From Cladocopium goreaui (taxonomy: Eukaryota > Sar > Dinophyceae > Suessiales > Symbiodiniaceae), in assembly GCA_947184155.2 (NCBI GenBank), contig CAMXCT020003135.1:280440-344439 (forward strand): a stretch of 64,000 bases of DNA. Direction: 5' to 3'. This document shows, one piece after another, positions 10,107-47,959 of this stretch. The stretch's first letter is position 1, and every line of letters starts with the position of its first letter. Both the position numbers and the translations under genes were made by a program. The notes beneath the pieces were generated by a model. That model was not told the origin of the DNA and ran no database searches. It saw only the letters and a list, made by a program, of their open reading frames with translations.

Positions 10107-10618
10107 TTTGGGTACCCTCTGGTAATTTAACATAGCTATGGAAAATCACCATTTTTAATGGGTAAATCCACTATAAATGACCATTTTCAATAGCTATGTA
10201 AACGTTTACCAGAGGGTATTTTGTCCAGCGACTTGACGAGATGTTCATTGCTGGTCAGTTGATGATGGATGATTGTTCTCTTAAAATGGCATTTAAGGCA
10301 TTTACGCTTACACAAACGAATGGCTTACCCCACAGTAAACAAACATGGCTCTTGGCATTTCCCATCTTTAAGGCGAACATGACCAGACCACCAGGTGCAG
10401 TTTCACACAAGGTTTGCATACTGGAAGGAATATCCAGCTTTGTACCCACTTATAGACCTAACCAAAGTGACATTACAAGGTTAGAGACACATTCATTGGC
10501 AGTCTTGGGCAATTCCTTTTCCCATATTAAATCCCTTCCTAGAAACCCTGGGGTATTTTTGGATCTTGTCATTTTGGGACCTTACAGTACCTTACACGAT
10601 ATTGCTAATGGTGGATGA
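10107..10618 (+). CDS. longest coding island, interrupted by a family A MITE
   Basis: Acceptor CATTTTTAG, then TTTGGGTA. The MITE 10115-10216 and one TA must be removed. The frame then runs 135 codons to TGA (FGYFVQRLDEMFIAGQ...KMAFKAFTLTQTNGL...GISSFVPTYRPNQSD...PYSTLHDIANGG). Codon usage is less G/C-biased than in other islands. No family recognised. It is the best single coding stretch of the window. The right part alone is 125 codons from an ATG at 10241, so the MITE may instead lie upstream of the start. Confidence 0.55.
10115..10216. repeat. family A MITE inside a coding island
   Basis: CCCTCTGGTAATTTAACATAG...GTAAACGTTTACCAGAGGG, TA on both flanks. Removal leaves TTTGGG-TA-TTTTGTCC in frame. 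Confidence 0.9.
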
Positions 10619-10628
10619 TTCACTATGA

Positions 10629-10781
10629 TTCACGAATTATGAATGCGTTTCGTCGCAACGAGATTCGTCAAAATTCCCTCCGCGTTTCACCGGCGAGGCC
10701 AATTTTACCCAGAAGTTGGAAGAGATCACGTCGCTGGTGCCCAGATCATCCCAAAAAGTTTTTCGACGAAAAAATCCATGG
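10629..10781 (+). CDS. candidate exon, hypothetical protein
   Basis: Open frame FTNYECVSSQRDS...FTGEANFTQKLEEITSLVP...VFRRKNPW, ending at a donor CCATGG|GTCCCC. The second half could start at the internal acceptor TTTTACCCAG (10718). Two other plus frames are open here, so frame confidence is moderate. Confidence 0.35.
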
Positions 10782-10938
10782 GTCCCCCAGCTATGTGTGC
10801 TGGTTTATACTCATCCCTGAAACTAGTTTCATATATATATATAATTATATACACATAAAGTCATATATATATATATTATATAAATATACGTATATATAAT
10901 TAAACAATAAACATCCATAAATCATAGAATGCACTTAG

Positions 10939-11087
10939 TTCCAATCCGTTCCCTGTGAAACTTGGGCTACTTGGGCTCCAAGGAATCAGGTGACCTTGTT
11001 GGAAGCCGAAAACGAGAAACTTGCCAAGAGACACGCCAAGGAGGCCGGTTGCGCAAGTGTGATCTACAGTTACTACACCCCGATGGG
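10939..11087 (+). CDS. exon, hypothetical coiled-coil-like protein
   Basis: Acceptor GCACTTAG, then 49 codons: FQSVPCETWATWAPRNQ, then LLEAENEKLAKRHAKEAGCA (helical, charged heptad-like), then SVIYSYYTPM, ending at the donor ATGGG|GTGATT. Third positions G/C-rich. Other frames contain stops or are unnatural. Family unknown. Confidence 0.5.
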
Positions 11088-11179
11088 GTGATTTTTTGGG
11101 TGTCTGAAAATAGTAGGAATAGTAGGGTATACCTCCCCCCCCCAGCAAATTCCATCAATTTCCTGCCACTAAGGCATTG

Positions 11180-12060
11180 AACTTAGTATTGCTGAAAAAA
11201 AGCATCATGTTCTCCGTGAAACGGAGAGTTAAAGTGGGTATCTCCCATTTTCAGACACACCTATATTTATACATATATGATACATTAGAGATTGAAGCAT
11301 GACTTATAAGGGATTTATGGTTGTTTTAGTATCAAATATATGAAAATTCTCTATGTATGGGGTTTAACCTGGATTTTATTCAATAAACAATGGGCATATA
11401 CGGATATATAATTTGATAAATGATGACTGGTTCATGATTAGTTCGGGGATTTTACCACGCTTCATCTATTGGACATACTCACAATCTATGATAGGGATCC
11501 CGTTAACCAACCAGTACAATTGAATGACAGGGTTTTTTCAATAATCGGTTTGACTAGATATGCAACCAAGAAATTATCGGGATATCATTCTGTTTATAAT
11601 GTTTGGAGTAAACAAAATACATTTAGGTGTATTTACTGCCATTGAAAAATGATACATATTTGCATATTTGATCAGCCCCTGGATTACTCGCCAATTTTCA
11701 GTCTAAGCCATATGCCAATATGATAATCAGTGAGGTTGGGAATTCAGCGTGGATCATCCAGATCTTGTCACAACATCACTAGTTGATGACCAAACAGGAT
11801 CACCTAGTGATTATCATATTGGTAGTGATTACTATAAAGCCACTGAGACTGGATCCATACTAGTAATGTTATCAACTAGTTGTGATTATCAACTTGATAG
11901 ACTTTGCAACCAGCTGTGATTCTCTTGTTGGATCCATTACCTTTTGCGACCAGTCTCCAGTCGGTAGATAACGTTAGGAAAGGGGGTGAGTTGATGGAGC
12001 TTGGAATTCCTGGGCAAAAAATGGCCACGATGCGGAAAATGCTGACATGGGCTGAAAGCC
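11180..12060. other. no gene seen
   Basis: AT-rich stretch. It contains an imperfect ACTAGTTG/CAACTAGT inverted repeat around 11780-11890 and short TA tracts; nothing coding is supported. Confidence 0.5.
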
Positions 12061-12072
12061 AAAAGACTCGGA

Positions 12073-12176
12073 TAGAGTGAACATGACTATTTTATATATT
12101 ATAATATTATTATATTATACTATACTATATTATATTATATTATACTATACTATATTATATTATATTATATTATATG
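12073..12176. repeat. TATAT microsatellite
   Basis: Irregular TATTA/TACTA pentamer repeats. Confidence 0.95.
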
Positions 12177-12626
12177 TCTCTAGTAGATTCAGTTTCTCAA
12201 ATATGTGTCAGACCAAACAGATCCGAAAAGGAGTGTCCTGGGCATCTTCCTCGAAATCCAGTGTTCTTGGTATCGTATCCTACCATCATACTTGCTGGTT
12301 TCTGAAACCTTTACATGGCTTACCAGAGTGGGTTACGGTGTAGTATCTCTATCACAAGCTAGCTAGGTTTTTTGAGATGATAAGAGTTTTTTGATCTCCA
12401 GATAGCTACATTTATACATGATGTTTGATTTTTGATAGTTTTTTGATCTCCAGACAGATCTTTGTTTGATTTGTTGTTGGGCACCGAAAAATTGGTTGGT
12501 TCCTGATTTTTTGTCCATTGCCAACGTGGATTAGCTCATCCCATGTTGTATACTGTATAATATTATATACATACACACTATTCCCTAATTCCTATGGTCA
12601 TCCACATGATCAGCCGTGCAGTTCAC

Positions 12627-12701
12627 GGCTCCCAGCTTTTGATCGCCTCGCAGATGCGACGCACCTCGTCGACCAGCAGCCCGGGAACCAGCAGTCGGAC
12701 A
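12627..12701 (-). CDS. exon, hypothetical protein
   Basis: On the minus strand: acceptor GTCCTGCAG, then VRLLVPGLLVDEVRRICEAI-KSWEP, then donor GAGCC|GTGAAC. About 83% of third positions are G/C, the strongest bias seen here. Plus frames are also open (RLPAFDRLADATHLVDQ) but less biased. Confidence 0.45.
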
Positions 12702-12905
12702 CTGCAGGACTGAGTTGTGGCCCCTTTTTTCTGTGAAGAAAAAGGGACCATTTACCAAGAAGAACGGGAAGTTAACCAAGAAAATATGAGGAATTATGTT
12801 TGCAATTGATGTGATTTATCAAGTTTATCATGGGTGAGTTTTCACAGAACTATTCTGACTGAGGTTTATTTCAGTGGATATGTCATGATGTTTCTGTCCT
12901 TGGGT

Positions 12906-12942
12906 GAACCAATTCACCAATTCACCAATTCACCAATTCATG
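12906..12942. repeat. 9-bp tandem repeat
   Basis: CACCAATTC repeated about four times. Confidence 0.9.
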
Positions 12943-13254
12943 ACCGTCTCATGTGACCTGAGCTGCGAGTATATCTCCACCGGCGGTTCTAACAGAGATA
13001 TATCCCCTGTTTTGGCCATTGTTACTCTATATCCATGATCAAAATTTCTTTAAGTGCCATAAACATCCCCATGTTACTGTTATTACTGCACTTCACTAAA
13101 CCATACTAAACCCACAAATATCCTACGAATGCTATAGTTTTTACCCAATGCGATAAACCATCCCCAAACTCAGCATTATTTGAAAATGGGTGCTAGGTTT
13201 ACGGAAATTTTCGAGGATCCCAAGGTAATCCCACATTCTATAAATCACATAATT

Positions 13255-13394
13255 ACCCAACCTGGTTATGACTAACATAGCCATGGTATAGATGGCCCAT
13301 AGAAATAGATGGTTTACAATGGTTTACCTGGGTTTACCTATTAAAAGTGGTGATTTTCCATGGCTATGCGGCTATGTTAAATAACCAGATGGTA
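13255..13394. repeat. family A variant (CAACCTGGTTATG end)
   Basis: TACCCAACCTGGTTATGACTA...TTAAATAACCAGATGGTA, a subfamily shared with 49087-49208. Confidence 0.75.
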
Positions 13395-13418
13395 ATATAA
13401 TTCATCACTAACCCACAG

Positions 13419-13733
13419 TCGACATCCTTTGACCACGTGCACCAAATCGTCGAAAACGAGACACAAAAATTTCTGCAGGATCATAGGAGACCTTCAGGAG
13501 CAGCGACGTCACCGACGCAGCGGCCCCAGCAACTGTGGCGGGTAATACAAGGTGGTGCCCCAGTTCGTTAGCTAAGTTGGTGCAAATAACTCCCATAACT
13601 ATGGTTTATGGCAGATATAACTATAGTATTCATGGAGTTTATAAACCAATTTATAACTGGGGGGCACCATCCTGTAAAAATGGTGATGAAACGGTTGAAG
13701 GATCATTGGACACTAAATCCATGTTTTACTTCG
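13419..13733 (+). CDS. exon interrupted by a family C MITE
   Basis: Acceptor ACTAACCCACAG, phase 0; donor ACTTCG|GTAAGA. The MITE 13548-13674 plus one TA splits the exon. After exact removal it reads 62 codons: STSFDHVHQIVENETQKFLQ...PQQLWR-VIKMVMKRLKDHWTLN. The minus strand is also open across the same junction (DPSTVSS...AAASVTSLLLKVSYDP). Good plus-strand splice sites favour plus. No family recognised. Confidence 0.5.
13548..13674 (+). repeat. family C MITE inside an exon
   Basis: CAAGGTGGTGCCCCAGTTCG...GGGGCACCATCCTG, TA duplicated. 127 bp, not a multiple of three, so it must be removed for the frame to continue. Confidence 0.9.
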
Positions 13734-14153
13734 GTAAGAAAAAACATGTTTATATATGTTAAAATATCATCGGCCATGGCTTCCGGAGCTATGTTAAAGA
13801 ACCAGAGTTTTTTTTTCTCCAGTAAGCTGACATATAACTATGGAAAATGGTCATGTTTAATAGGTAAATCATCGAACTAAATGGACGATCTTCTTACCTA
13901 TGTTAGTTTACCAGAGGCGACCATCTAAAGAAAACACCCCAGAAAACATGTGTTTTTTTTTCAGGGAATTTTGAGACGTTTGGGACCATGAGGTTGTTTA
14001 ATATTTGGGGGATGGGAAAAACAATTGGGATCCATAAACCTCCCTGAAGATGTTTACAAACCAGCTATATGGCAATCTTGGGTTTTCTTATGTTGGCAAC
14101 GAAAATTTCGCTTCTCCTTTGGGGGAATCAGGCGGACCCAACATGTGTGCAGG

Positions 14154-14273
14154 TATCCTCTGGTAAACGTTTACAAAAAACGAACTGGAACATCACCATG
14201 CTATCAATGGGTAAATCCACGAACTTTCTATGGCTATGTTCAATAGCGAAGTGTAACAAATTACCAGAGGGAT
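14154..14273. repeat. family A MITE, diverged
   Basis: GTATCCTCTGGTAAACG...CAAATTACCAGAGG. Confidence 0.7.
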
Positions 14274-14918
14274 AGAGGGTATATCATGGTATATGATCTT
14301 TTAATTTAATTTACCTCCATGCAGACCATTTGTGACTGGTTGTAATCATTCAACCAACATGCACGTGATATCATCTATTAGGGTTTGATAGCCATTACTC
14401 ACTTATAGCAACCCCCAACAAGAATAGAAATCCAATCCAACACATGTGGTAAATTCGGGTAAATTAAATCTTGTTCGGCATATTTGGGGTTTCTACAACC
14501 AACATACTGATGGATATTTAACCCGCCCCAAAAAATGGATGACACATTACAAAGCTAAAAGTGACGGGGAGTTTGTGTTGATGTACTGCGAGATATCATC
14601 TGAACTCTACAAATTTGTTACTTGAGTTTATAATAACTACACTAGCTCTAGCTCTAAGATTTATGGTCAAAATTTTGCTTATGTATAATTCATATGATCT
14701 ATCAATTGGTGAACATACACCAACTTTAAAGTAGGGGACTTGTTGTACAAGATTCAATCATCGGGATGAGTATACATAACCCATGTATAATTCATAACTA
14801 TATACATACATATGTATCATATGTATATATTACATAATATTATACATGGGTTCTAAACATCCATTAAGCCATATACATATAGTATACATAACGTATAACC
14901 CATGTATATATCATACAG

Positions 14919-15077
14919 TAACGCCATTTGAATATGTGGAGGGCGGGCCAGACCGCGAGGCCCCGGGGGTAGCATGAAATACCAGTTCGTATATTTAAAT
15001 GTAGTTACCGTATGTTTAAATGAATTGGATTCCGTATGTTTAGACGGCCCGGCGGGGCAAAGAAAACCTTTCCGGAG
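14919..15077 (+). CDS. two short exons around a 75-nt intron
   Basis: Exon 14919-14968 (acceptor ATCATACAG; PFEYVEGGPDREAPG), intron 14969-15043 (GTAGCATG...GTATGTTTAG), exon 15044-15077 (TARRGKENLSG), then donor GGAG|GTAGTC. Phase is maintained. The start of the next intron repeats the start of this one for about 35 nt. Both islands stand out as G/C-rich in a TA-rich setting. Confidence 0.45.
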
Positions 15078-15244
15078 GTAGTCTAAAATACCTGTTCGTA
15101 TATTTACATGTCCGTAAATTTGAATGTAGTTACCGTATGTATAATACTTATTCTGTTTATAATTATGTGTACATTTATATATAATATATATATATACTGT
15201 ATGTTTCGTAAACATCCATTAAACCATCGAGTTCACTATCCCAG

Positions 15245-15382
15245 GCAACGAGGCTCCGGAGAGTCTTCGGCACCTTCGGCACTGTGAATTCAGAGGTCAA
15301 CACGGTCAACACGGTCAACACGTGGCAACAAAACTACGGAGAGTCTACGGTTGGAATCCCCGCTTGGAAAATGATGGTTTAA
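15245..15382 (+). CDS. exon with a coded VNT repeat
   Basis: Acceptor TTCACTATCCCAG, then LRRVFGTFGTVNSEVNTVNT...STVGIPAWKMMV and TAA, or a donor ATG|GTTTAA just before the stop. A 9-bp repeat (GTCAACACG x3) gives the VNT repeats; third positions about 70% G/C. Phase from the exon at 15044 would instead favour a second frame (GNEAPESLRHLRHCEF), so the frame is unsettled. Confidence 0.4.
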   Translation, partial: ATRLRRVFGTFGTVNSEVNTVNTVNTWQQNYGESTVGIPAWKMMV

Positions 15383-15611
15383 TAGGGATTTGAAGGGTTA
15401 TACATGGGTTATACATGAATAGTTGATATATAATTACTTGGCGGATCATCCCACGGTTTCTTTTCTGGTTAGGAACCATAGCTATAAGTAGGGTAAGTAT
15501 GGGTAAGTACAGTTATAACTGGGTGAACTCAGCCATTTACGATTCCTGGGCTGAGCCCACTTTTCGATCAAAAAATCCTTTCGGGCTGCGCGTGATGCTC
15601 ATCCGTTCATG

Positions 15612-15850
15612 GAGAACCATGGGATCTGGGGCCCCTGGGGCTGTCCAATTTGAAAAAGCAAATCCTCTGGTAATTCGAAACCTCAATCATAGATAGAACA
15701 CATAGAACACATGGAAAACTGGAAATTATGGGAAAAGTTTCATCTGAATTTCTTCAGATGTCCTAAAACGAGGGGTACCCCGTTGCATCATCCAAGACAT
15801 CCAAGTCATTCGCCAATTTTCATCTTGAAAGTTAGGCTTGTCTTGTCGCG
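15612..15850. repeat. family G repeat
   Basis: Shares order and sequence with 20045-20270: ACCATGGGATCTG, TCCAATTT, GGAAA..ATGGGA, ATGTCCTAAAA, GGGGTACCCC, CATCCAAGTCATT. Confidence 0.65.
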
Positions 15851-16721: not shown

Positions 16722-18237
16722 CCAGCAGAAAACCAACTCCAACAACCCGGCTGCCCAGGCGCGACAAGTCGCCACCCCTGTGGGAAAACCCAAAGCTGGT
16801 CGCCCGAAGAGGCAGCATGTTCGACGATTTTCAGCGCAGGATGTCACTGTGCCAGATTTAGGGGAATCATAACCAACCACAGGGAATTTTTGGGGGTCTA
16901 TACTGGGTAAATTTCATCACGACCTCACTGTTCTCCCGAACCCTGGAATCATGTTTTTTTAAGAGGAATCATCCCCAAATAACCCAACATTTCAGGTGAG
17001 TGAAATAGTGAAATAGTATAATTTACTCAGAATCTATAGCCTGATACTGACGTTCGATCTTTAAGGTGTCTTTGAAGATGTCGAGGACCAATGGCCCCAA
17101 TCCAACGTTTTTTCTCAATACCATGGCGAATCTGATGGTGACTCTGCAGTTTTCTTTGAAAGGAGTCAACTCGATGTGATGATTCTCTTTGCATCTGTTT
17201 GCCACACCATGCCACAATACATCATTATACAATATTACATATATTACACACATATAAGAATAGTAATACTAATAGCTCTAATAATAACAATGATAATCAT
17301 GATAATGATTGATAATAATATTGATCATAATAATAACAATAAATAATAATGATCAAAAATAATAGTGATAATAATAACACTAACAATATTTTTTTTAATA
17401 TAATATAAAATAATATAATATATAAAATAATATCATATTATATTATATTATATCATATCATATTATATTGTATTATATTATATCATATTATATCATATCA
17501 TATCATATTATATTAAAATTTATTATATTATATTATATTTTATTATATTATATATACATTCCATATCATGACAATGATCTTGGATGGATTGATTGGGCCA
17601 TGACCTATCCTGGAACATGATTTCTTCACGCTTTAAGCTGGTGAATCCCTTCCTTGCAGAAAGTCCCTAAAATGAATCGATCCAATGCTTCTGAGGGCTT
17701 GATATGCTTGTATATACATAGGTACATATATATCTGGGTAAATTTCATCACGATCTCACTGTTCTCCCTCACCCTGGAATCATGGTGAATGTTAGGGAAA
17801 TCATCCCCAAATGGCCTTACTATTCAGGTTAGTGAAATATTATAATTTACCCAGATATATATATATATATATAAATGGATAAATAAACAAACACGCATAC
17901 ACATCTTTGTTCAAATTGGGGAAGGTCTTGCCATGGACGAACTCTTGGCAGACCACCAACTGCAGGGGATATGAACAGGCCATGCGTACGTGACAGGTCA
18001 ACACCCAGTCCGCCCGATGGATCCAGCCGTACAGAGTGCTTAGGGCATGATCTCGGGTAGTCTTAGAGAGTTCTACAGGATGGTGCCCCCCAGTTATAAG
18101 TTGGTTTATAAACCCCATTAACTATAGTTCTATCTGCCATAAACCATAGTTATGGGAGCTATAAACCAACTTAGCTAACGAACTGGGGCACCACCTTGTA
18201 GGATCATTTCACGATTCCATTTCGATAGGGGTATCAT
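16722..18237 (-). CDS. 5' part of a three-exon minus-strand gene, hypothetical protein
   Basis: Exon 1 18237-17895 starts at ATG (MIPLSKWNREMILELS) and contains a family C MITE, 18076-18198, whose exact removal keeps the frame. It continues DHALSTLYGWIHRADWV...PLQLVVCQEFVHGK to donor TATGC|GTGTTT. Exon 2 17194-17027 reads CKENHHIELTPFKENCRV...LDIFKDTLKIERQYQAIDS. The intron to exon 3 is exactly a family E MITE (GA|GTAAAT...ACCCAG). Exon 3 16902-16722 reads IDPQKFPVVGYDSP...GLLELVFCW to donor TGG|GTGAGC. All phases agree. The plus strand is open over parts of exons 2 and 3, so exon 3 is the least certain. Confidence 0.5.
16903..17026 (-). repeat. family E MITE acting as an intron
   Basis: CTGGGTAAATTTCATCACG...ATAATTTACTCAG. 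Read on the minus strand it begins GTAAAT and ends ACCCAG, matching exon-2/exon-3 phases. Confidence 0.8.
17220..17565. repeat. AT-rich tract (TAATAA and TATAT repeats)
   Basis: Imperfect ATAATA then ATTATATTATAT repeats. It would lie within the first intron of the minus-strand gene. Confidence 0.95.
17738..17856. repeat. family E MITE
   Basis: CTGGGTAAATTTCATCACG...AATTTACCCAG with ATAT on both sides. Confidence 0.9.
18076..18198 (-). repeat. family C MITE inside an exon
   Basis: CAGGATGGTGCCCCCC...GGGGCACCACCTTG between duplicated TA. Removal joins ATG ATC CTA GAA CTC on the minus strand. Confidence 0.9.
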
Positions 18238-18263
18238 ACAAATCAGTACAAATCATCCAACAG

Positions 18264-18371
18264 ATTATTCGTTGGTATTGCCAATGATGTTTGATCCCTT
18301 TACAATCTATGGACGATCGCCATCGCCAGGGGCGTCAAATATTCTCGGCCAGGTCGGGAGGCAGGACCCAG
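18264..18371 (+). CDS. exon, hypothetical protein
   Basis: Acceptor CATCCAACAG and a consensus donor CCCAG|GTGAGT. Reads YSLVLPMMFDPFTIYG-RSPSPGASNILGQVGRQDP. It lies 27 bp from the ATG of the minus-strand gene; if its ATGATG (18283) is the start, the two genes are divergent with almost no spacer. Confidence 0.5.
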
Positions 18372-19186: not shown

Positions 19187-19313
19187 TTTTCTGATCTGGT
19201 TAACAACCACTAATGAAAAATAGGGCACTGGATAAACCATAGGAACTCACGAGGCGACCTCACTGACTGATGGCTAGTAGAGAGACGCATCCCAAAAATA
19301 CAAAAATATTACT

Positions 19314-19413
19314 GGTTGGTGGTTTGGAACATTTTTTTGTTTTTCCATCTATTGGGAATAATAATCCCATCTGACTTTCATATTTTTCAGAGGGGTAGGT
19401 ATACCACCAACCA
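19314..19413. repeat. family B MITE
   Basis: CTGGTTGGTGGTTTGGAAC...ACCACCAACCAG. Confidence 0.9.
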
Positions 19414-19920
19414 GTGATGATTGTTCGGCATTTTTTCGACTCAAGGTCAATATGTTCCATGGTCAAGATTCAATACTTTGTATGGATTGAGGAAAAGGGG
19501 CATCTGAGGAGATAGTTATTATATATTATCATTGAATGCGTCGTACTTGTGATGAAAGTGACTGGCTCTGAAAGTAGTTGATTCTAAGAGTAGCAAACAG
19601 AACATAAGAATCTGTGGTGTTCCGGCTTCCCACAAGGAGGCATGGTTGTTCTCTATGGATGTTGCAATATCTGTGATGCTTTACGCCTGACAAGAAACAA
19701 ACTGGTCTTCGGAAAGCCAGCTGTTAGGGATTCTGTGATGATTCCCTTATAATTCCAGATAGAGCAGTGAAGCACTCCACAATTCTGGTGCTGCTTTACA
19801 TCATCAAAAAACTACCAGGTGAACAATTTTCATTAAAAACATGTGGAAAATCCACCGTGAATGTAGATCATGAATTCCGAAATGATGGGTTTTCAATATC
19901 TTTTTGTAGCTTTCTCCTAG

Positions 19921-20858: not shown

Positions 20859-21011
20859 ACCGAAAAACCGACGGCGGAACGTTCGTCGCATGTCTCACCC
20901 GATGGCCAGTGTTTTAAAACTGCCAGGGGCAGCCTTCGGATTCCGGGTCACGTTTTGCTGATGAGTACCTGGACGCTCCATTGGCCAACCAAAATGGATA
21001 TGTTATTTATT
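20859..21011 (+). CDS. exon, hypothetical protein
   Basis: Acceptor GATGTCTCAG, 51 codons in phase 0: TEKPTAERSSHVSPDG...ARGSLRIPGHVLLMSTWTL...MLFI, donor ATT|GTAAGT. The other frames stop early. Among the better-bounded exons; family unknown. Confidence 0.5.
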
Positions 21012-21571
21012 GTAAGTGTGTAGAGAGATATTTATATTATTAATCACACTGGGTATATCTCATAACTACAAAAAACTGTAATCTCATTATGCTCATACTA
21101 CTTAATCTCATACTTATCTATATATATATAATTTCATGTACGCAGTATTGTAATTATATATCTTACCTATCCTAGCTATCAATAATAACAGGGTATATCA
21201 TCCCTGTGATCCAGTTGTGGCTTCTAAGGAAGGATGGATCCACAAGGATGTTTTAGAAAATAATCCTGATGATAATTGTAATACATTAGAATTTATAATC
21301 ATTATCTCAAAAAGAGAATACATCTGTATAATCATCTAATTGAGAATACCAGACCATCTAGTGTGTCTATGTATATATATATATACATTATATCCTGCTA
21401 TACTATGCTACACTAGACTATCCTATCCTACTCTATGCTATACTATGGGTCTACCATACCATACCATACGAATACTATTCTATACTATACTATATGATAC
21501 TATACTAGACTATCATCCACTAATTGTCACCCAATGAACACCTAATTGAGTAAAATTGTATATATATATAC

Positions 21572-21696
21572 AGGATGGTGCCCCCCAGTTATAAGTTGGT
21601 TTATAAACCCCATTAACTATAGTTCTATCTGCCATAAACCATAGTTATGGGAGTTATAAACCAACTTAGCTAACGAACTGGGGCACCACCTTGTAG
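21572..21696 (-). repeat. family C MITE
   Basis: CAGGATGGTGCCCCCC...GGCACCACCTTG, TA flanks, inserted in a TA microsatellite. Confidence 0.9.
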
Positions 21697-21899: not shown

Positions 21900-22010
21900 T
21901 GCAGTTATGGCCATAAAAATCAGTTATAACTGGTTATTTCTATGGGATTATACATTCTATAAATGGGGTTTTCTTAGTACTTATAACTGGTATTTTGGGC
22001 CATAACTGTG
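21900..22010. repeat. family D MITE
   Basis: GCAGTTATGGCCATAA...TTTTGGGCCATAACTGT. Confidence 0.85.
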
Positions 22011-22680: not shown

Positions 22681-23069
22681 ATGTGATACCCTCTGGATCC
22701 CTCTGGTAATTTAACATAGCTATTGAAAATGACCATTTATAGTGGATTTACCCATTAAAAATGGTGATTTTCCATAGCTATGTTAGTTCACCAGAGGGTA
22801 TAATTTTGCTTTGCAACAAGAAACCGCTGGTGTTGAACCACGAACAAACAGCATGTCTTGAAACCAAGTCTGGACCGACATCCGAAATTGATGACTCCAA
22901 GCCCTGGCGATGTTTTTTTTCAGATCAATCCCCGTGTCGTGGCGACCCATGTGCGCCAGGGAGGGATGAGAAGATCCCGGTGATCATTGGAACCCCCACT
23001 AAATTCAGGCTTTCTTTATTCTACAAGCATGAAACGAAACGAAACGAAACCAATGTGAAAGCAAAATAA
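22681..23069 (+). CDS. terminal exon interrupted by a family A MITE, Cys-rich hypothetical protein
   Basis: Acceptor CTGATCACAG. Exact removal of the MITE 22689-22798 plus one TA gives 91 codons to TAA: CDIILLCNKKPLVLNHEQ...SEIDDSKPWRCFF...PCRGDPCAPGRDEKIPV...HETKRNETNVKAK. The Cys-rich middle (CRGDPCAPGRD) and basic tail are notable. An internal TTTTTTTTCAG at 22921 looks like an acceptor, but the frame is open through it. Family not recognised. Confidence 0.5.
22689..22798. repeat. family A MITE inside an exon
   Basis: Left end carries a duplicated CCCTCTGGATCCCTCTGGTAA; right TTCACCAGAGGG; TA flanks. Removal keeps the frame. Confidence 0.9.
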
Positions 23070-23091: not shown

Positions 23092-23187
23092 GATTGGTTG
23101 GTGATTTGGATTTTTTTTTATTTTTCCATATATTGGGAACAATAATCCCATTTGACTAATATTCTTCAGAGGGGTACCACCAACCAG
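23092..23187. repeat. family B MITE
   Basis: TTGGTTGGTGATTTGG...ACCACCAACCAG; internal AATAATCCCATTTGACT. Confidence 0.8.
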
Positions 23188-29721: not shown

Positions 29722-30086
29722 AAAAACTGGCAAACCCGAGCGACATGTCATATTGTGTCTTGATGTCCCCGGCCCGCTTAGGTGCGTCATTGAAAATCAA
29801 TGGAATTGTGTCACTGCACAAACTGCCTCAGTGGTTCTCCAGTGCCCCGGGCTTCAGGGGGAAACAAAAACAGCTGTGGAGAACAGCTCTGGAGAATAGA
29901 GTGTTTCCGAAAAAGGTAAACTGCTTGGTGGTTTGGAACATGTTTTTTTTCCCCATCATATTGGGAATGGAAAAATATCCCAACTGACTTTCACTCCATC
30001 ATTTTTCAGAGCGGTAGGTAGGCTCAACACGGCTCAACCACCAATCAGTAAAACAGTCAGTAATCACCCGCATTCATTCTGCATGA
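29722..30086 (+). CDS. terminal exon interrupted by a family B MITE
   Basis: Acceptor ACTTTCCATAG: KLANPSDMSYCVLMSPARLG... then LPQWFSSAPGFRGKQKQLW, TALENRVFPKK. The MITE 29921-30048 follows at a consensus donor AAAAAG|GTAAAC. Exact removal with one TAAA gives ...VKQSVITRIHSA and TGA. Beyond that TGA the same frame stays open to 30263 (VGEYGANGIPKAMG). Confidence 0.5.
29921..30048. repeat. family B MITE inside an exon
   Basis: CTGCTTGGTGGTTTGG...CAACCACCAATCAG with TAAA on both sides. Confidence 0.85.
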
Positions 30087-30538: not shown

Positions 30539-30640
30539 CAGTTATGGCCCTTTACCAGTTATAAGTACTTATAACCACATTTATAGAATGTATAATCCCA
30601 TTTATAACCAGTTATAACTGATAAATGGCCATAACTGTGG
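30539..30640. repeat. family D MITE
   Basis: CAGTTATGGCCCTTTACC...GATAAATGGCCATAACTG. Confidence 0.85.
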
Positions 30641-30848: not shown

Positions 30849-30956
30849 TACCCTTTGGTAAACTAACATAACTATGGAAAATCACTATTTTCAATGGAAA
30901 ACAAAAAAACACTATAAATGGTCATGTTCAATAGCTATGTTAAATTACCAGAGGGT
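30849..30956. repeat. family A MITE
   Basis: ACCCTTTGGTAAACTAACATA...TTAAATTACCAGAGGG. Confidence 0.85.
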
Positions 30957-31189
30957 ACATGTGTGCTTTATACCCCCATTTTTTTATGTCTTTGTATGTC
31001 GTAACCTCCAGACGACACAGAGTTAACTCTCAGGATGTTACTGAAAAATGACTGGTTTCCTCCTTTTTTACTCCTGGTTTCAAAGTTATTGGATACTTTC
31101 TATTTTTACATGGCTGGGGGTGCTATTCACGTACCCTCTGGTAATTCAACATGGAACATATTCACGGATTGAAAAAAGGAGAATCATCA

Positions 31190-31636: not shown

Positions 31637-31856
31637 CTATATAAAACGATTTTTCAATATACCACAAAGTGGTGCCCCCAAACGATAGTTAAGTTGGTTT
31701 ATAACTCCCATAACTATGGTTTATGGCAGATATATAATGGGGTTTATAAACCAATTTATAACTAGGGGGCACCACATTGCAGCACCATGGTTCGCATATG
31801 GCTTACTTTTCGGGCGGGCGCCGAGTCGCGCGAAATGTGATGTTCAGGCTCTCGAG
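31637..31856 (+). CDS. exon interrupted by a family C MITE
   Basis: Acceptor GTCATGTAG and donor CTCGAG|GTGTGG. Removing 31665-31779 with one CA gives YIKRFFNIPAPWFAYGLLFG then RAPSRAKCDVQALE. Hydrophobic/aromatic start, basic end. The alternative frame downstream of the MITE (AYFSGGRRVARNVMF) is open too. Confidence 0.45.
31665..31779 (+). repeat. family C MITE inside an exon
   Basis: CAAAGTGGTGCCCCC...GGGGGCACCACATTG; duplicated dinucleotide is CA rather than TA. Confidence 0.85.
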
Positions 31857-32106: not shown

Positions 32107-32593
32107 AATATATATATATTGTGTATTATACTGTTAGTATTGTTGTTTTATCATTATTACTAATTGTTATTATTAATAATAATATATAATAAATGATAAT
32201 ATACTTATGTTTATTATTCTATTATTCTATACATGATATGAAGAATCATCCTGGAGTAGACAGAATGTGGATGTTTCAAACGAATTACCATGTCAGCAAT
32301 TAGTATTGTCTTTTTTGAAAAAATGCATTGTCTATCTACTCCAGAATGATTATAGAGACCTACAACTATGATAAGGGCTATATTTTTTTGCCAACTGTTA
32401 TTATTAGGATTGAATATCATTTGAATTACTGAGAGCTTTTGTCGGGATTTGATGGTAGCACATTGGGATTTTTCATGGAGAATATGGAGATCTACATTAG
32501 GGGGAGATTTCCATGGGAGATTCCATCAGAACAAATAATCCGATTCTTCCCTGAACATGAAAAAATTGGGCTTTGTCCAGAAAATGAGAAATA

Positions 32594-32690
32594 CCCTCTG
32601 GTTATGTCAAAATAGCTATTGAAAATGACCATAGAGATAGTGGATTTTCCCATTAAAAATTGCCATTTTCAATAGCTATGTTAAATTACA
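32594..32690. repeat. family A MITE, right end lost
   Basis: CCCTCTGGTTATGTCAAAATAG...TATGTTAAATTAC; flanked by GAGAAATACC-like sequence on both sides. Confidence 0.7.
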
Positions 32691-32862
32691 TGAGAAATAC
32701 CACAATTTCAATTATTGCCCACATGGGGAACACCATAGTTTACCATGAGATGGAACGGGTACTATGTTCAGACAAACATGTACAACACATGTGAATACAT
32801 ACACATGAACATGCAGAGATGTGGTTTCCTGATTGAAGCATTAGCAAGTAAGGCTATATTAG

Positions 32863-32944: not shown

Positions 32945-33146
32945 AGTTGTACCCACATGCATAGTGTTTAGAATGTTTCATGTCGTATTTTAAACATTCT
33001 AAATCATGAGAAACTTAAATCCACGCTTGATTACCCCGGGGTAGTCTCTAGACTTGAGATATTGCTCAGTTAGATATCTATTTTGGTGCTCCTAGATATG
33101 TATCGTTCATCCCTTGGCAAAGCATGGCCTTCCCATTTATCTATAT

Positions 33147-33249
33147 ACCCTCTGGTAATGACTAACATAGCTATTGAAAATGGCAATTTTTCATGGGAAA
33201 ATCAACTATAAATGGCCATTTCCAATGGCTATGTTAGTTTACCAGAGGG
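33147..33249. repeat. family A MITE
   Basis: CCCTCTGGTAATGACTAACATAG...TTAGTTTACCAGAGGG, TA flanks. Confidence 0.9.
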
Positions 33250-33304
33250 TATTTATATTGGTTCAGCCCTGATTTTTTTATTACACCCGCTTTCCTGTTT
33301 CAAA

Positions 33305-34413: not shown

Positions 34414-35519
34414 CTGAAGCCGAGGTCTGGTCTATGCTTAAGGAGCTGATTCCCGTGCTGCTCGAAAACATGGCCCCTCGGCGCTTTGGAACGCTCCGGA
34501 AGCGGTCGAAAACCGTGACGTCGTAAGGTGCAAAAACACACCCGGACGATGGTGATGAAAGCCATAAAACCATAGCTGCTTGGTGGTTTCAAACATGAAT
34601 GTTATTTTCCATTTCATATATGGGATAATTAATACTTCCCATTGACGAACTCCATCATTTTTCAAGATGGGCACATTGCACCACCAACCAGTTAGGAACA
34701 TGCTGATTTCACCAAGCAAAATGTGGAGATGATGCATTCGTATAGCTGATTTATGATAGCTATAAGGGGTGATTAGTTCACTGGGGATTAGTTGACGCAG
34801 GTATAGATGTGATAACTACACTTAGAGGACTTACTAACTTATTGAGCACTTACTCAGTGGGATGATCCTCTAAGTATCTACTGGTAATGGATTTCACGAT
34901 CGAACAGCGGCAATTGAATGGGATTAACAAAGGAATATTGGGCTTTATACATCTTTATACGTAAGCCCACATTCACCAAGCATAATAGAGATATAATTGG
35001 ATATATTCCGGAGATCATATTATTATACATATTATACAGTGATTTGTTCGGAGCAATGGTTATCCACATTGCCAGCCATGGATCCATGTGCCATGGTGAC
35101 ATTGATTCCCATGGTTGGCTGATAGGCACACAAGGCCTGGGTAACATTGGGTAACTGGATATCTATAGGATGGGTGTATAAACAAACTTACCCTCTGGTA
35201 ATTCAACATAGCAAACTGGAAAATCACCATCTATAATTAGTAAATGTTCTATCAATGGGTCATTTTCCATAGCTATGTTAGTTTACCAGAGGGTAAAGTG
35301 GGGGATGGGCACATTGTATGATTGTAAAACATGTCTATGATCGGACCAATCATAGTGGGACAGAACGAATACGCTAGAATAATAATCTACAACGGTTATA
35401 TCACTGTGCGTATGTTTGATTGTGTTTGTACTCCAAGAATGCAAAGTATTGGGGGTCGGGAGATTGAGGACATATGCAAATTCACACCAAAAGTGGCCTT
35501 AAGTCGAACGGGTCTATAG
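34414..35519 (+). CDS. 3' end of a three-exon gene, hypothetical protein
   Basis: Exon 34414-34522 (acceptor GTCATTCCAG, donor ACGTC|GTAAGG): AEVWSMLKELIPVLLENMAP then RRFGTLRKRSKTVT. Exon 35040-35140 (acceptor ATTATACAG, donor CCTGG|GTAACA): DLFGAMVIHIASHGSMCH then GDIDSHGWLIGTQGL. Exon 35356-35519 (acceptor CAATCATAG): GQNEYARIIIYNGYITVRMF then SIGGREIEDICKFTP, TAG. Phases 2 and 1 match at both joins. A family B element lies in intron 1 and a family A element in intron 2. No domain recognised. Confidence 0.55.
34580..34691. repeat. family B MITE in an intron
   Basis: CTGCTTGGTGGTTTCAAAC...CACCACCAACCAG. Confidence 0.85.
35192..35294. repeat. family A MITE in an intron
   Basis: CCCTCTGGTAATTCAACATAG...TTAGTTTACCAGAGGG, TA flanks. 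Confidence 0.9.
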
Positions 35520-36789: not shown

Positions 36790-37009
36790 AAAAGCCTTGC
36801 TGTTTTGGGTGCCGAGGTTCTAAGCGGCCATGGGATTACATTGAAATCAGACTTTCTACAGGATGGTGCCCCCCAGTTATAAGTTGGTTTATAAACCCCA
36901 TTAACTATAGTTCTATTTGCCATAAACCATAGTTATGGGAGTTATAAACCAACTTAGCTAACTATGGGGCACCACCTTGTAGGTGTCCAACATTTGTATG
37001 TACTTGGAG
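36790..37009 (+). CDS. exon interrupted by a family C MITE
   Basis: Acceptor TTGTGATAG: KSLAVLGAEVLSGHGITLKS then DFL. The MITE 36859-36979 is removed with one TA, then GVQHLYVLG and donor GGAG|GTTCAT. A GA-AG splice (CTACAG|GATGG...TTGTAG|) would also keep a frame (DFLQVSNICMYLE). Confidence 0.45.
36859..36979 (-). repeat. family C MITE inside an exon
   Basis: CAGGATGGTGCCCCCC...GGCACCACCTTG between duplicated TA. Confidence 0.9.
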
Positions 37010-37685: not shown

Positions 37686-37715
37686 GTGAAGCGCCAATAT
37701 ATATATATATATATA

Positions 37716-37826
37716 CCATCTGGTTATTTAACATAGCCATGGAAAATCACCATTTTTAGTAGGTAAACCCAAGTAAACCATCTATAGATGGGCCATTTTC
37801 CATGGCTATGTTAAATAACCAGAGGG
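37716..37826. repeat. family A MITE
   Basis: ACCATCTGGTTATTTAACATAG...TTAAATAACCAGAGGG, in TA repeat. Confidence 0.85.
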
Positions 37827-37850
37827 TATATATATACATATATATAATTA

Positions 37851-37953
37851 CTGGTTGGTGGTTTGGAACATGAATTTTATTTTTCCATTCAGTTGGGAAT
37901 AAAAATCCCAACTGGCGAGCATATTTTTCAGAGGGGTTGAAACCACCAACCAG
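37851..37953. repeat. family B MITE
   Basis: CTGGTTGGTGGTTTGGAAC...AACCACCAACCAG, ATTA on both flanks. Confidence 0.9.
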
Positions 37954-38387: not shown

Positions 38388-38391
38388 TGTA

Positions 38392-38490
38392 CCCTCTGGT
38401 AAACACACATAGCTATTGAAAATGGCCATTTATAGTTGATTTACCTATTAAAGATGGCGATTTTCCATAGTTATGTTATTTTACCAGAGG
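38392..38490. repeat. family A MITE
   Basis: CCCTCTGGTAAACACACATAG...TTATTTTACCAGAGGG, TA flanks. Confidence 0.9.
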
Positions 38491-38850
38491 GTAGTACTCA
38501 AAGATTGTTTTGGTGGGTCCATTTGTTCCATGATTTTAAGTCTCATAGTAACCTGATCACTGAGCGTATGGTTTATAGACCCTACCAGAAAGACATATTG
38601 CGAGTTTCGTAGGGGATGGATATCCATTATCAACCAGGATCACAACAGCTTCTCTGTGGAATCATGAACAAACTATCTTTGTTGGAATAATATATATATA
38701 CTGTATATATATACATATACGAGTGCATGTGTTTATATTACCGCCTAATTATATAAAAACTCCAAGTGTGTTTTAACCATGCATTTCTTGTACTCCAAAC
38801 ATGACCCCTTTTTCGACAAGTTTGGATGTTGTTTCGGAGAACTTCTCCAG

Positions 38851-39110
38851 TTCTATATGTTGACATATGGATCGTAGTTGCATTACCCTCTTGTAAACTA
38901 ACATAACTATGGAAAATCACAATTTTTAATGGGAAAATCCACTATTTCTATGGTCATTTTCAATAGCTATGTTAAATTACCAGAGGGTAATCCATTTGGG
39001 CACCCGAGTTTTGGTCCCCGGCGCGCCATGCAATTTTCACCAAGGTTCCAGATGCCGCGCAGGATTCAACCCGCCTGGGTTGGAGAAATCGTTTTTTTTT
39101 TCGCCTGTCG
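38851..39110 (+). CDS. exon interrupted by a family A MITE, possible membrane segment
   Basis: Acceptor AACTTCTCCAG, consensus donor GTCG|GTGAGT. With 38886-38987 and one TA removed: LYVDIWIVVALIHLGTRVLV then PGAPCNFHQGSRCRAGF then FFFSPV. The join falls within the hydrophobic stretch. The minus strand right of the MITE is also open and natural (VESCAASGTLVKIAWRAGDQ), so strand is not secure. Confidence 0.4.
38886..38987. repeat. family A MITE inside a coding island
   Basis: CCCTCTTGTAAACTAACATAA...TTAAATTACCAGAGGG, TA flanks. Confidence 0.9.
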
Positions 39111-40400: not shown

Positions 40401-40643
40401 GCTATGGCTGATTCATTTGATACAAGGTGGTGCCCCATAGTTAGCTAAGTTGGTTTATAACTCCCATAACTATGGTTTATGGCAGATATAACTATAGTTA
40501 ATGGGGTTTATAAACCAACTTATAACTGAGGGGGCACCATCCTGTATGAATCTTCACCTTCACCTACGTACGGAAACGCACCAGCCGGGGATTTCCGCAT
40601 GGCACTTTCCGCACGCCAGGACATTAAACCTCGAACACACAAG
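40401..40643 (+). CDS. exon interrupted by a family C MITE
   Basis: Strong acceptor TTCTTTTTTTCAG; donor ACAAG|GTACGT. AMADSFD, then MITE 40423-40544 removed with one TA, then MNLHLHLRTETHQPGISAWH and FPHARTLNLEHT. The frame is open on both sides only if the element is removed exactly. Confidence 0.5.
40423..40544 (+). repeat. family C MITE inside an exon
   Basis: CAAGGTGGTGCCCCATAG...GGGGCACCATCCTG, TA duplicated (GATA...TATG). Confidence 0.9.
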
Positions 40644-40732: not shown

Positions 40733-40890
40733 CGGTGGTGCCCCAGTGAGGCAAATCGCGTGCTGAGTTGGTGCGTTTATACAGTAACTCCCATGAAACC
40801 TATATGGTTTATGGCAGATATTTGACGAACTATTTATTCATGGGGTTTATATATATAAACCAACGTTCACATCACGTTTGGGGGCACCAT
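40733..40890 (+). repeat. family C variant, long copy
   Basis: GTGCGGTGGTGCCCCAGTGAGG...GTTTGGGGGCACCATCTG. Confidence 0.7.
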
Positions 40891-41837
40891 CTGTTGCATG
40901 ATATTCCTCAAGTTCTCTTTGGTACTTGAAACTTGGGCTGAAAAATCTCATTTGTTTCGATGAATTTCGATGAAAAACTTGGCCATTGAACGGCCCTTTA
41001 TATAGGGTTCCCAGGCAGCCATGTTTTACGACACAGGAGGGTATCCCTGAATTAGCAAGAGATTTCTACAGGTATTTCGTCGAGGTGATCTAGCAAGAAG
41101 TGGGTGATACACCTCGGGACAGAACAGAATATATAATAATAGTTCTGAGTAAATCACTCAACTCTCAATTGCAATAAATGATCATGATTATAAATAATAT
41201 CAGAACACAGTAATAATGATTAATTAGTGATAATATGATTAATCATATGTCATGTGTTTTCTTATTCTGGGTTCTTCATTCTCAATGCCGGCATCATGAT
41301 TCTGATCAATGCAAGAACAACAGGCAATCAATGACAGCACGCTAGAATCATGAATCCTGAGATGCATCAAAGGACAAACATTCTCTGGTGAAGTAATGGT
41401 CTAATGGAAATCCAATGTGTGAAACTAGGTGAACGGAGCAAACATGGAACACATTGTCAGTCCATGTGCCCTCCGGTAATTAGACGTGGCAATGAACAAT
41501 TCCCCGTACATTTGCATTTCAATGGTGGATGTTCAATTATTGCCATGTTTCATTACAAGAGGTTGCTTCTGAAAATGAGTCCCAAAGAAACCATGATCTT
41601 CTGAATCTAGTTGGTATCTGTTGGAAATGGTACCAAACATCACTTAATATGAAGTTTGCCAAAAGCGGAATGTGTTTTTCCTGAAATTCACAAGATCCAT
41701 GTGAGCTGGCTGCAGAAACAAGCAAAAGCAGATCAATGTCGATCATGAATGCCATTGTAACATATGTTGTACAAGTTCAAACATGTATATACATACATAC
41801 ATTATGGGGTACCATATACTCTGTATATATATATATA

Positions 41838-41945
41838 CTGGTTGGTGGTTCGGAACTTTTTTTATTTCTCCATATATTGGGAATGTCATCATCCCAACTG
41901 ACGAACTCCATCATTTTTCAGAGGGGTAAGCTCAACCACCAACGA
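41838..41945. repeat. family B MITE
   Basis: CTGGTTGGTGGTTCGGAAC...AACCACCAACGAG. Confidence 0.85.
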
Positions 41946-42362
41946 GTATCTATACCGTTTAGTTTCATACATATGTTAGTTTACCAGATGTTAGTGTAAC
42001 TACTACTGTACCACTACACTAGTAGAATCTCCATAAACATTAGAATATCGTTGCTATTCACCATTGATTAGTCAATTACCATTGGTAGTGACATCTGTAT
42101 GTATATAATATATATATACTGTAAAAACCATCTACTGAAAACCATATGTACATTAAAATCAAGAGACCATTTTGCCATAGATCATAGAATTGGATGATGG
42201 GAAATTTTACAGGAAAACCCTATATTTGATGGTAAAAACCATGGTTTCCGGTTAAGATTTTCCCTTTAACCACTCCATTTTGCCATAGAATAGAAACATG
42301 GCAATTTTCATGGGACAGGCCCTAAAGGTCAGTGATCCCACCGTGCCACCTTTCCGGATCTC

Positions 42363-42884: not shown

Positions 42885-43001
42885 TACCCTTTGGTAAACG
42901 TTTACATAGAGAACTGGAAAATCACCATTTTTTTCATGGGAAAACTCACTATTTCTATGACCATTTTCAATAGCTTTTTGTTAACGTTTACCAGGCCGGG
43001 T
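42885..43001. repeat. family A MITE
   Basis: TTACCCTTTGGTAAACG...GTTAACGTTTACCAGGCCGGGTA. Confidence 0.75.
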
Positions 43002-45761: not shown

Positions 45762-45916
45762 CCCAAGTTGTTGATGTTTCAGGTGGTGGGAAAAAGGTTG
45801 CAGTGCTGCCCGCCAAAATAAATCTACTGCGGGAACACCCCTCTAGATATCTGGATATTAGGTGCACAGAAACGGCGGCGGAAAAAACCTCTGAAGAAAG
45901 GACATGGTACTATTGA
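45720..45916 (+). CDS. candidate terminal exon
   Basis: After GTGTTGAG: FHKQGIPGREKSVAQVVDVS then GGGKKVAVLPAKINLLREHP then SRYLDIRCTETAAEKTSEER and TGA. If the real acceptor is the TGTAG at 45761, the exon starts with QVVDVSGGGKK and the overlap with the previous ORF disappears. Confidence 0.45.
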
Positions 45917-46250
45917 CCTATTATTCTTTCCTGCTGGTGGTTCTTGGCCACTTGTAAACATGCCAATTAGACATGCTGAAATAAGATTGGAATCAGTCAT
46001 GCACTGCCAAGTCATCTTTAAAACTTAGAAGCGTCGATCTCACCATCTTCCAAGATGTGAAGCACGCAAGCACTTCACAACCGTGACATGGAACCGACTA
46101 AAATTCTAACATGAAAATCCGTGAAGAGGATCCAGAAATTGCAAGTTGTCGGACATCACGAACCAATTTTGCCTCAATGTGAGCCTTGTTTAGGAGAACA
46201 AATAAAGACTCCATCAATTGAACTTTGCCATAACCTAGCTAAATCCACAG

Positions 46251-46338
46251 AACTTGGTAGATGAAATCACCATTTCTGAATTCATCACCTTCCCAGCCTG
46301 GGAATCCCATGGAATCCAACCGCCTTCCAAGATCCAAG
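46251..46338 (+). CDS. candidate exon
   Basis: Acceptor AAATCCACAG, phase 0: NLVDEITISEFITFPAWESH then GIQPPSKIQ, donor CCAAG|GTCCGT. Confidence 0.45.
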
Positions 46339-46698
46339 GTCCGTCACCAAGAACGCCGCGAGTCGCTTGGGCGATTTGATGGCGCGAAGGAAGGATGCCA
46401 GCACCATTGGTGTGCGCATTGGCTTGAGGCGCCGGAGATGGGTTGGAGCAACGGACCAGCGCTTGCGCGGTACAAGCTTGCGCGCGGTAGTGGGAGCCCC
46501 ATCTATAGTAAATGGATTATACCATATCAAAACCCCCCCCCAGTTACATCAAGTTCCATCATGTTGGAAGTCGATCTAAAGGTCCATGTATTATTTAAGG
46601 GATTGTTATTAAAGGCCGCCGTTGTGTTCCATGGCGGCGAAGCCTTGGTCATGATGTTTCCTCCTAAAAATGCGCTAAGCATGCTGGTAGCCTGCTAG
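46339..46698 (+). CDS. open coding island, hypothetical protein
   Basis: A second plus frame, open from 46261 to TAG at 46698. Best part: RHQERRESLGRFDGAKEGC then HWCAHWLEAPEMGWSNGPAL then ARYKLARGSGSPIYSKW. The minus strand is also G/C3-rich over 46290-46500 (LVPRKRWSVAPTHLRRL). Strand uncertain. After 46500 it is less convincing until VFHGGEALVMMFPP. Confidence 0.35.
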   Translation, partial: VRHQERRESLGRFDGAKEGCQHHWCAHWLEAPEMGWSNGPALARYKLARGSGSPIYSKWIIPYQNPPPVTSSSIMLEVDLKVHVLFKGLLLKAAVVFHGGEALVMMFPPKNALSMLVAC

Positions 46699-47097
46699 AT
46701 CCTCAATTTTTGAGACACACCCAAATCTTAGTCAAATCTTCATACCCATTGTATCACTTCATTATATATAGTTGGTTTAATTATCCAAAATAATGTTGGT
46801 TGGTTAAATATGCCACATGTTTGAGACACATTCAGATTCCCACTATGGTTGGTTTTAAATCGCCATAATATATATATATATATATACATATTCTAATATA
46901 TACACAATATTATATATACTATATATATCTATATATATTGTTTTATCACCAAGTGTACCATATCATCCAAGTCATTAACGTAGTACTAAAACCGATGCTG
47001 ACTTGGCGATCCGCCATTGAGAAAGCCTCACTCCGGGCTACTGCTTGAAATATCTCTTGGGATCAGCAGCATTCCAATCATCCGAAAGGCTCTACAA

Positions 47098-47217
47098 GGT
47101 GGTGCCCCATAGTTAGCTAACTTGGTTTATAAGTCCAATAACTAGGGTTTATGGGGGTTATATCTATAGTTAATGGGGATTATAAACCAACTTATAACTG
47201 GGGGGTACCACATTGTA
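47098..47217 (+). repeat. family C MITE
   Basis: CAAGGTGGTGCCCCATAG...GGGGGGTACCACATTG, TA flanks. Confidence 0.9.
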
Positions 47218-47596
47218 TATACTTGGATGTGCATCCCACTTGCGGTTGATCTAAATTCTTCAATGCCCCGCAGACGGCGTCGTTGTCCAGTCGAACACGA
47301 CATTTGATGGCCAAGAGAAGCCATGATTTCTGGTGTTATCCCTCTTTATGCCATTATTTTTGAAGAAACATCCATTTTGGTTGGTTTTTTCTTCATAAAG
47401 AGCCAGTGTTTAGGTAGCAAACTTATCTTTTGAGGACGGTGTACAAGCCAGATCCAGTATTCATTGGTTCAATCCCCATCTTAAATGTTAAAATCCCTAT
47501 TTTGTGTGATTAAATCTTCCATTTATTCACTGGTTGAATCTCCAGTTTTGATGGTTACTTGGATGTGCATCCTACTTAGTATGTGGTTACACATGT

Positions 47597-47959
47597 TTAT
47601 AATCCACATATAATCCATGTAATCCCGTATGTAAGTGGGGATCTTCCATATACAATGTGGCCCCCCCAGTTATAAGGTGCTTTATAAACCCCATGAACTA
47701 TAGTTATAAGTACCATAAATCCTGGTGAAATTGGAGTGATTTGCACCAACTTAGCTATCTAGGGGGCCCCACTGGCCCGACATTGTACAATTGGGGGTAA
47801 AACACATTGCCTAAGTGAGATGCACACCAGGCAACGAGGCTGCAACGGGATGTCGTACACCATGGCCAGGGCGCCCAAACGGTTTTTTTTTTGTGCCGTG
47901 GTCAAGTTATATGGAACGAAGCAGTCAAAAATAGTGATGTAACCAGTGAATATCGTCAT
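47597..47959 (-). CDS. complete small gene (75 aa) interrupted by a family C MITE
   Basis: Minus ATG at 47959: MTIFTGYITIFDCFVPYNL then TTAQKKNRLGALAMVYDIPL then QPRCLVCISLRQCVLPPIV. The MITE 47653-47785 is removed with one TA, then YGRSPLTYGITWIICGL and TAA at 47597. With the element retained the frame stops at once. The central block has about 88% G/C third positions. Three Cys, hydrophobic ends. No family recognised. Confidence 0.5.
47653..47785. repeat. family C MITE inside a coding sequence
   Basis: CAATGTGGCCCCCCCAG...GGGGCCCCACTGGCCCGACATTG, TA duplicated. Confidence 0.85.

Follow-up and report, generated by a model that had tools for sequence, protein, structure and literature searches.

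Inverted-repeat transposons of a dinoflagellate contig and a predicted family C intron in a kinesin gene

We here deal with a stretch of 64,000 nucleotides (the window), which is part of contig C3135 in a genome of 1,165,616,438 bases and 6202 contigs, and with the miniature inverted-repeat transposable elements (MITEs) that it harbours. A first-pass annotation had proposed that MITEs of several families between positions 10107 and 47959 (the interval) are exactly removable from coding islands, i.e., that they act as introners. The explanation that we consider very probable is more restricted: the elements of the window are plain MITEs, and one of their families, C, also makes introns where its target begins with GT. 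The case in point lies outside the window, in a kinesin gene on contig C3546.

The genome encodes DVNP, and the host therefore is a dinoflagellate. The search for this protein yielded 34 matches here and none in 14 control genomes, which by their names are prokaryotes. DVNP is a nuclear protein that marks dinoflagellates, as stated in an excerpt of PMC11453091.

Repeat families of the window

By self-comparison and profile searches, eight dispersed families were found. Their 96 nhmmer matches, which include partial and weak copies, occupy 10,114 bases or 15.8% of the window (A 39, B 18, C 17, D 5, E 5, F 4, G 3, H 5); D, F, G and H thus have three to five matches apiece. Family A, the largest, is about 104 bp long, begins with TACCCTCTGGTAAACTAACATAGC and has TA at both ends. 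Its end motif occurs 40 times in the window at up to three mismatches, where 0.00 are expected; a first genome-wide look produced 1524 candidates, and 40 of these received a score. Family B measures about 125 bp and also has TA ends; in the window, 21 A or B copies show TA at both ends. Family E (about 105 bp, core CAGTTATGG...CCATAACTG) has a TG or TA target. Family C, of about 104 bp, has the core CTGGTTGGTGGTTTGG...TACCACCAACCAG (CTGG...CCAG) and duplicates a target of 4 bp. Exact 4-bp repeats flank 17 of the 38 intact-ended C copies from all sampled loci, against 1.3 by shuffling, in a sample that takes in loci picked for genes or for a GT target.

Families A, B and C are MITEs: they are short and repeated, have terminal inverted repeats and are flanked by a target duplication of fixed length. 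Stowaway-like and Tc1-mariner MITEs carry a TA target. A and B are likewise short, palindromic and dispersed, with a TA duplication; their terminal motif (CCCTCTGGTAA...), however, is a different one. The first-pass annotation was right in describing several unrelated short inverted-repeat families with target duplications. Our A, B, C and E appear to correspond to its families A, C, B ('TAAA') and 'CA', respectively; for our C, the identity with the 'TAAA' family is probable.

Family C in a kinesin gene

On contig C3546, two exon matches to the kinesin motor domain, covering profile positions 196-259 and 258-327, lie 122 nt apart. The gap is a copy of family C, which scores 57 bits over the full profile. 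It is arranged as AACAAGA GTTT[CTGGTTGGTGC...CCACCAACCAG]GTTT GAGTGCC. Deleting the core together with one GTTT leads to GANINKSLSALGNVINALVEI / NINKSLSALGNVINAL and restores the conserved motif NINKSLSALGNV; the joined exons align to KIF4 without a gap at the join (E=4.8e-42). The predicted intron, GTTTCTGG...CCAACCAG, is of the GT-AG type. Its donor stems from the duplicated target GTTT, its acceptor (CAG) is the element's own end. The first intron of the same gene contains a copy of family A (L066), and the likely borders of that intron (GC...AG, by eye) are found elsewhere.

Five other kinesin matches of a length that fits the profile cross the intron position without a stop (C5894, C3902, C5891, C6128, C2835). 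Four weaker witnesses, somewhat longer than the profile stretch, are open there as well (C5991, C235, C1849, C4544). Since the paralogues are uninterrupted at this position, the intron of C3546 appears to have been gained.

Of course, a single gene invites the objection that the families are plain MITEs throughout and that coincidence or a pseudogene accounts for the kinesin case, the more so as no other sampled C copy has clear coding flanks. We consider this very unlikely. The exons meet precisely at the GTTT repeat, whereby a conserved motif is restored; none of the gene's three exon matches contains a stop, and by eye the frame continues through the stretches that separate them; the ends, GT..CAG, are canonical. 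Judged from the sequence, removal of the element restores the protein, and the splice sites coincide with the borders of element and duplication. On the evidence of this one gene, family C is likely an introner as well as a MITE, its splicing being predicted.

The gain may be pictured as follows. Family C would insert into an exon at a target that starts with GT. The 5' splice site would come from the duplication of this target, the 3' splice site from the element end CCAG. The ordinary spliceosome would then excise the element along with one copy of the target, leaving no scar, and a new intron would result. Transcription, actual splicing and a transposase-driven spread are steps that we infer.

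Which families could be removed in this manner was read from their consensus ends, in the registers within one target copy. Family A offers TACCCT..AGAGGG, ACCCTC..GAGGGT and CCCTCT..AGGGTA, none of which is GT/GC/GA-AG, and the tabulated exact-removal registers of B, D and E do not contain a GT/GC/GA...AG pair either. Among the tabulated families, C alone can yield GT/GC/GA..AG, because its core ends in CCAG, and it does so if the 4-bp target begins with GT, GC or GA. All six interval copies of C lack an exact repeat with such a start. By script, an exact 4-bp repeat is seen at 37851 (ATTA) only; by eye, 29922 has TAAA; neither is splice-competent. The C copy at 58034 (GTAA) was considered as a candidate exonic insertion and was not accepted, its flanks being open for about 38 codons in one frame and not proven coding. 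A simple rule is suggested: a common MITE with a 4-bp target becomes an intron only where the target starts with GT.

Reading frames and coding signal at the window copies

The first-pass annotation had built its case on ten islands in which deletion of an element plus one target copy restores an open frame. Long open reading frames (ORFs) across such joins are, however, what chance delivers. For the 21 A and B copies with TA at both ends, the median ORF spanning the join is 74 codons; 4000 random TA draws gave medians of 72 codons in intact DNA and 74 after a 104-nt deletion. Over the whole window, 21 of 55 near-complete A, B, C and E copies reach at least 80 codons (one-sided p=0.53), the null being 2990 sites with 37.1% at or above this length and at least 30 nt required per side. 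Within the interval it is 15 of 31 copies versus 11.5 expected from the whole-window null (p=0.04). With an interval-only null, p becomes 0.027, and the means are 79.3 versus 69.2 codons. If one or two bases more or fewer are removed from the interval copies, the mean is 80.1 codons (p=0.40). By chance alone, some 11 of the 31 copies should produce such 'islands', and the ten of the annotation are therefore nothing notable. The removal length is not divisible by three in 22 of the 31 interval copies; here the annotation was correct that most are of this kind, and the proportion equals chance. For 30 close A copies taken genome-wide, the spanning ORFs are no longer than the null (p=0.71); a mis-parsed row (L025) was kept in this set, and some loci share flanks, so that fewer than 30 are independent.

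The C copy of the kinesin gene gives a joined ORF of 198 codons at the exact register and of 158-200 codons at wrong ones. Wrong registers thus pass even here, and the length of an ORF is no indicator of exactness. Continuity of an ORF over the junction was therefore dropped as evidence of exact removal: nulls and wrong registers alike reveal its little power. In AT-rich DNA it is poor evidence, and MITEs whose removal merely leaves open frames can now be told apart from a likely real introner.

A codon model was trained on 2472 codons (G+C at third codon positions 0.62) in 45 homology-defined exon pieces, which come from genes for class I tRNA synthetase, RNA polymerase, kinesin and myosin; two of the 45 hold an in-frame stop codon, which was skipped. 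The two-sided score of a copy is that of the weaker side of the join. Coding-like islands do exist in the window: 11 segments, several of them overlapping, score at least 14 at seven places, against 0.0 in shuffles, for instance 10987-11082 and 46319-46498. None of the 55 near-complete window copies, however, has a two-sided score of at least 5 (null 0.5%), and one, the B copy at 61700-61835, reaches 3 (null 2.7%). The kinesin C copy scores 21.5, and 19.6 with its own gene left out of the training, which leaves the window counts unchanged. In a Pfam search, none of the ten joined ORFs, which were chosen by eye, surpassed the cut-off (best 16.6 bits versus 29.1), nor did anything in two forward frames of 10001-24998.

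These results bear on the idea that several unrelated MITE families of the window are introners, spliced from coding islands exactly at their target duplications. Coding-like islands, an introner family (C) in the host and the slight surplus of long joined ORFs among the interval copies would fit it. The register control, the lack of any copy with a coding signal of at least 5 on both sides, the ends of A, B and E, which offer no GT/GC/GA-AG in the tabulated registers, the repeats of the six interval C copies and the failure of all ten joined ORFs in Pfam make it highly improbable. Exact removal of a MITE family as an intron is supported for C, by one kinesin gene that lies outside the window; it is not supported for the interval, nor for several families.

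Programmed elimination of the elements from a somatic genome, in the manner of internal eliminated sequences, may come to mind as well. The boundaries of such sequences in Paramecium are TA, and the TA-bounded elements of the window resemble them. The host, however, is a dinoflagellate by its DVNP, dinoflagellates are not known to practise somatic elimination, and the copies show no link to coding frames. The probability of this alternative is close to nil.

Table 1. Elements of families A, B, C and E, with positions in the window
Element	Positions	Strand	nhmmer score (bits)	Target and remarks
A MITE	10113..10218	+	101	TA target
A MITE	13262..13394	-	40	diverged
B MITE	13546..13676	-		TA target; 7 nt from weak coding-like segment 13411-13539
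A MITE	13817..13917	+		diverged
A MITE	14155..14271	+		diverged
B MITE	18074..18200	+	144	TA target
C MITE	19312..19414	+		without exact 4-bp target repeat
B MITE	21569..21695	+		TA target
E MITE	21902..22008	+		TG target (by eye)
A MITE	22699..22800	-		
C MITE	23095..23187	+		without exact target repeat
C MITE	29922..30048	+		TAAA repeat (by eye)
E MITE	30539..30637	-		TG target (by eye)
A MITE	30849..30957	+		TA target
B MITE	31664..31779	-		
A MITE	32592..32694	-		
A MITE	33146..33251	+		TA target
C MITE	34577..34691	+		without exact target repeat
A MITE	35189..35295	+		TA target
B MITE	36857..36981	+	146	TA target
A MITE	37714..37828	+		TA target
C MITE	37851..37953	+		exact ATTA repeat; non-GT, hence not splice-competent by exact removal
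A MITE	38390..38493	-		TA target
A MITE	38884..38989	+		TA target
B MITE	40421..40546	-		TA target
B MITE	40734..40891	-		diverged
C MITE	41838..41946	+		without exact 4-bp repeat
A MITE	42885..42995	+		diverged
B MITE	47093..47217	-		TA target
B MITE	47652..47772	+		
E MITE	47973..48081	+		TA target (by eye)
C MITE	58034..58138	+		GTAA repeat; sole window C copy with exact 4-bp repeat starting GT; outside the interval 10107..47959

Some further features of window and genome deserve mention. The segments 10641-10739 and 10987-11082 on the + strand are coding-like, the second with a coiled-coil-like peptide, and have no element of families A-H inside; they are perhaps small exons of one gene. 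Direct tandem duplications lie at 62102-62983 and 63313-63871, with offsets of about 230 and 290 bp. Scans of the window with Rfam (at the gathering threshold) and for tRNA genes gave no match, nor did a scan of IMG/VR with the end of family A. In the genome, 11 of the DVNP matches form a tandem array, mostly about 1 kb apart (C1225:598030-617938). Contigs C1 and C2380 contain long intronless genes of bacterial type, with dozens of protein kinase matches on C1; judged by these frames, at least these two probably belong to a bacterial associate within the assembly. Nine frames for kinases, each of 446 amino acids and with near-equal scores (C1298, C4657, C1535, C1247, C518, C779, C2657, C2890, C557) are perhaps a dispersed gene family, retroposed or transposon-borne.

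Copies in other genes and comparison with known systems

How general is the intron in the kinesin gene? Between adjacent exon matches, 32 gaps that measure 420 nt or less were examined (kinesin 12, myosin 8, dynein 12), and one of them is family C. In this count one kinesin pair is a near duplicate, a gap need not be a single intron, L062-L065 were left aside, no exon pair from the DEAD, kinase and chaperonin searches entered, and two sub-7-bit matches in myosin loci were ignored. Apart from the C copy of C3546 and a special case at L069, the A, B and C copies that could be placed in conserved genes are located within longer introns. A second C copy, with the target ATAA, sits in this way in a dynein gene. 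One piece of C and two of B lie in an Rpb2 intron of about 1.1 kb on C6126 (profile positions 237 to 236). Copies of A come as near as about 23-55 nt to a matched exon in dynein (C140, C3013) and kinesin genes (C724, C2146), and about 70 nt on C5921. At L069:1-85 (C2467), a truncated A copy, comprising profile positions 20-88 only, ends about 4 nt before a kinesin match; it is not an exact TA-bounded insert.

By the codon model, a clear two-sided coding signal is seen, among 77 copies in other loci, at the kinesin copy only. One of 61 A copies reaches a score of 5 and two reach 3. The A copy in L066 (6.7) was dismissed as exonic, for it lies inside the first kinesin intron and its signal is antisense; that in L029 scores 3.8. 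With B, one of two copies, a small sample, reaches 3 (4.9); the weak two-sided score of the B copy in L038 was discarded when inspection revealed non-coding flanks. None of the 20 C copies most similar to the kinesin copy reaches 3. Forty further exons with their flanks contained four A matches above 40 bits (L115, L122, L130, L142), none of them at an exon border by eye. A search by codon pattern gave 19 matches versus 12 for the reversed pattern, and the four that were fetched contained one further GTTT copy, L150. This C copy has coding-like codons upstream and an A-like piece just downstream. It is a possible second exonic copy, unproven and not claimed. In the three forward frames of L047, Pfam detected nothing but the known RNA polymerase domain. 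In a class I tRNA synthetase gene (L036:5950-6110), a gap is flanked by a direct repeat, GTAAA, and introns in L058, L059 and L060 seem, by eye, to have similar repeats at their borders, in the manner of older introners.

Non-canonical splicing guided by hairpins could do without GT-AG ends, and A and B copies would then be removed at their direct repeat regardless. Amoebophrya offers a precedent (PMC7789003, in the portion seen), and when one copy each of A and B was folded as RNA, long hairpins resulted, with z values of -7.8 and -9.3. A palindromic MITE, however, folds into a hairpin anyway; moreover, the A and B copies placed in conserved genes are embedded in longer introns, and not one was encountered in an exon. 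We give this possibility hardly any credit. The same holds for a mixed scheme, in which several palindromic families, those with a TA target included, would leave the RNA by the hairpin-guided route and C by the ordinary spliceosome: its chances are equally poor.

Several observations weigh against the restricted role that we assign to these elements. For short exons the codon model is of limited power, with 33 of the 45 training pieces scoring at least 8 when left out, and it is only partly register-specific: wrong registers of the kinesin copy, on the antisense strand, still score 5.3-13.7. The window was scanned with Pfam only in part. The interval does have its small excess of long joined ORFs (p=0.03-0.04), which is equally large in wrong registers. 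The exonic C copy that is proven is a single one, in one of 32 short gaps, and A-derived DNA may form the 3' end of an intron at L069. Nevertheless, the explanation as a whole remains a very likely one. It regards the window as dinoflagellate nuclear DNA that is non-coding for the most part and crowded with non-autonomous inverted-repeat transposons. The elements of the interval would be ordinary MITEs that lie in intergenic or intronic DNA without effect on a reading frame, and the 'restored frames' would be the outcome of random joins in AT-rich DNA.

An introner with the layout of family C is of a kind already known in dinoflagellates, as a literature search by general terms, not by the C sequence, brought to light in excerpts of the papers. 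Prorocentrum is treated in PMC10666404. The introner elements of Amoebophrya have inverted repeats and short direct repeats at the intron borders (Farhat et al. 2021, PMC7789003, in the text available), as is the case here; they were, however, defined among introns with non-canonical splice sites, whereas the family C intron would be GT-AG. In Polarella glacialis and other dinoflagellates, recent intron gain has been attributed to several transposon families (Roy et al. 2023, as cited in an excerpt of PMC11453091); here it is one family in one gene, deduced from the DNA. The closest counterpart by layout is found in Symbiodinium microadriaticum. Its introners have 4-bp target duplications and inverted repeats, and they carry the 3' splice site in the element, the 5' splice site being contributed by the duplicated target (Gozashti et al. 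2022, PMC9860276, in the sections consulted), just as predicted for family C in the kinesin gene. Unlike them, family C is also present as plain MITEs where the DNA shows no coding signal.

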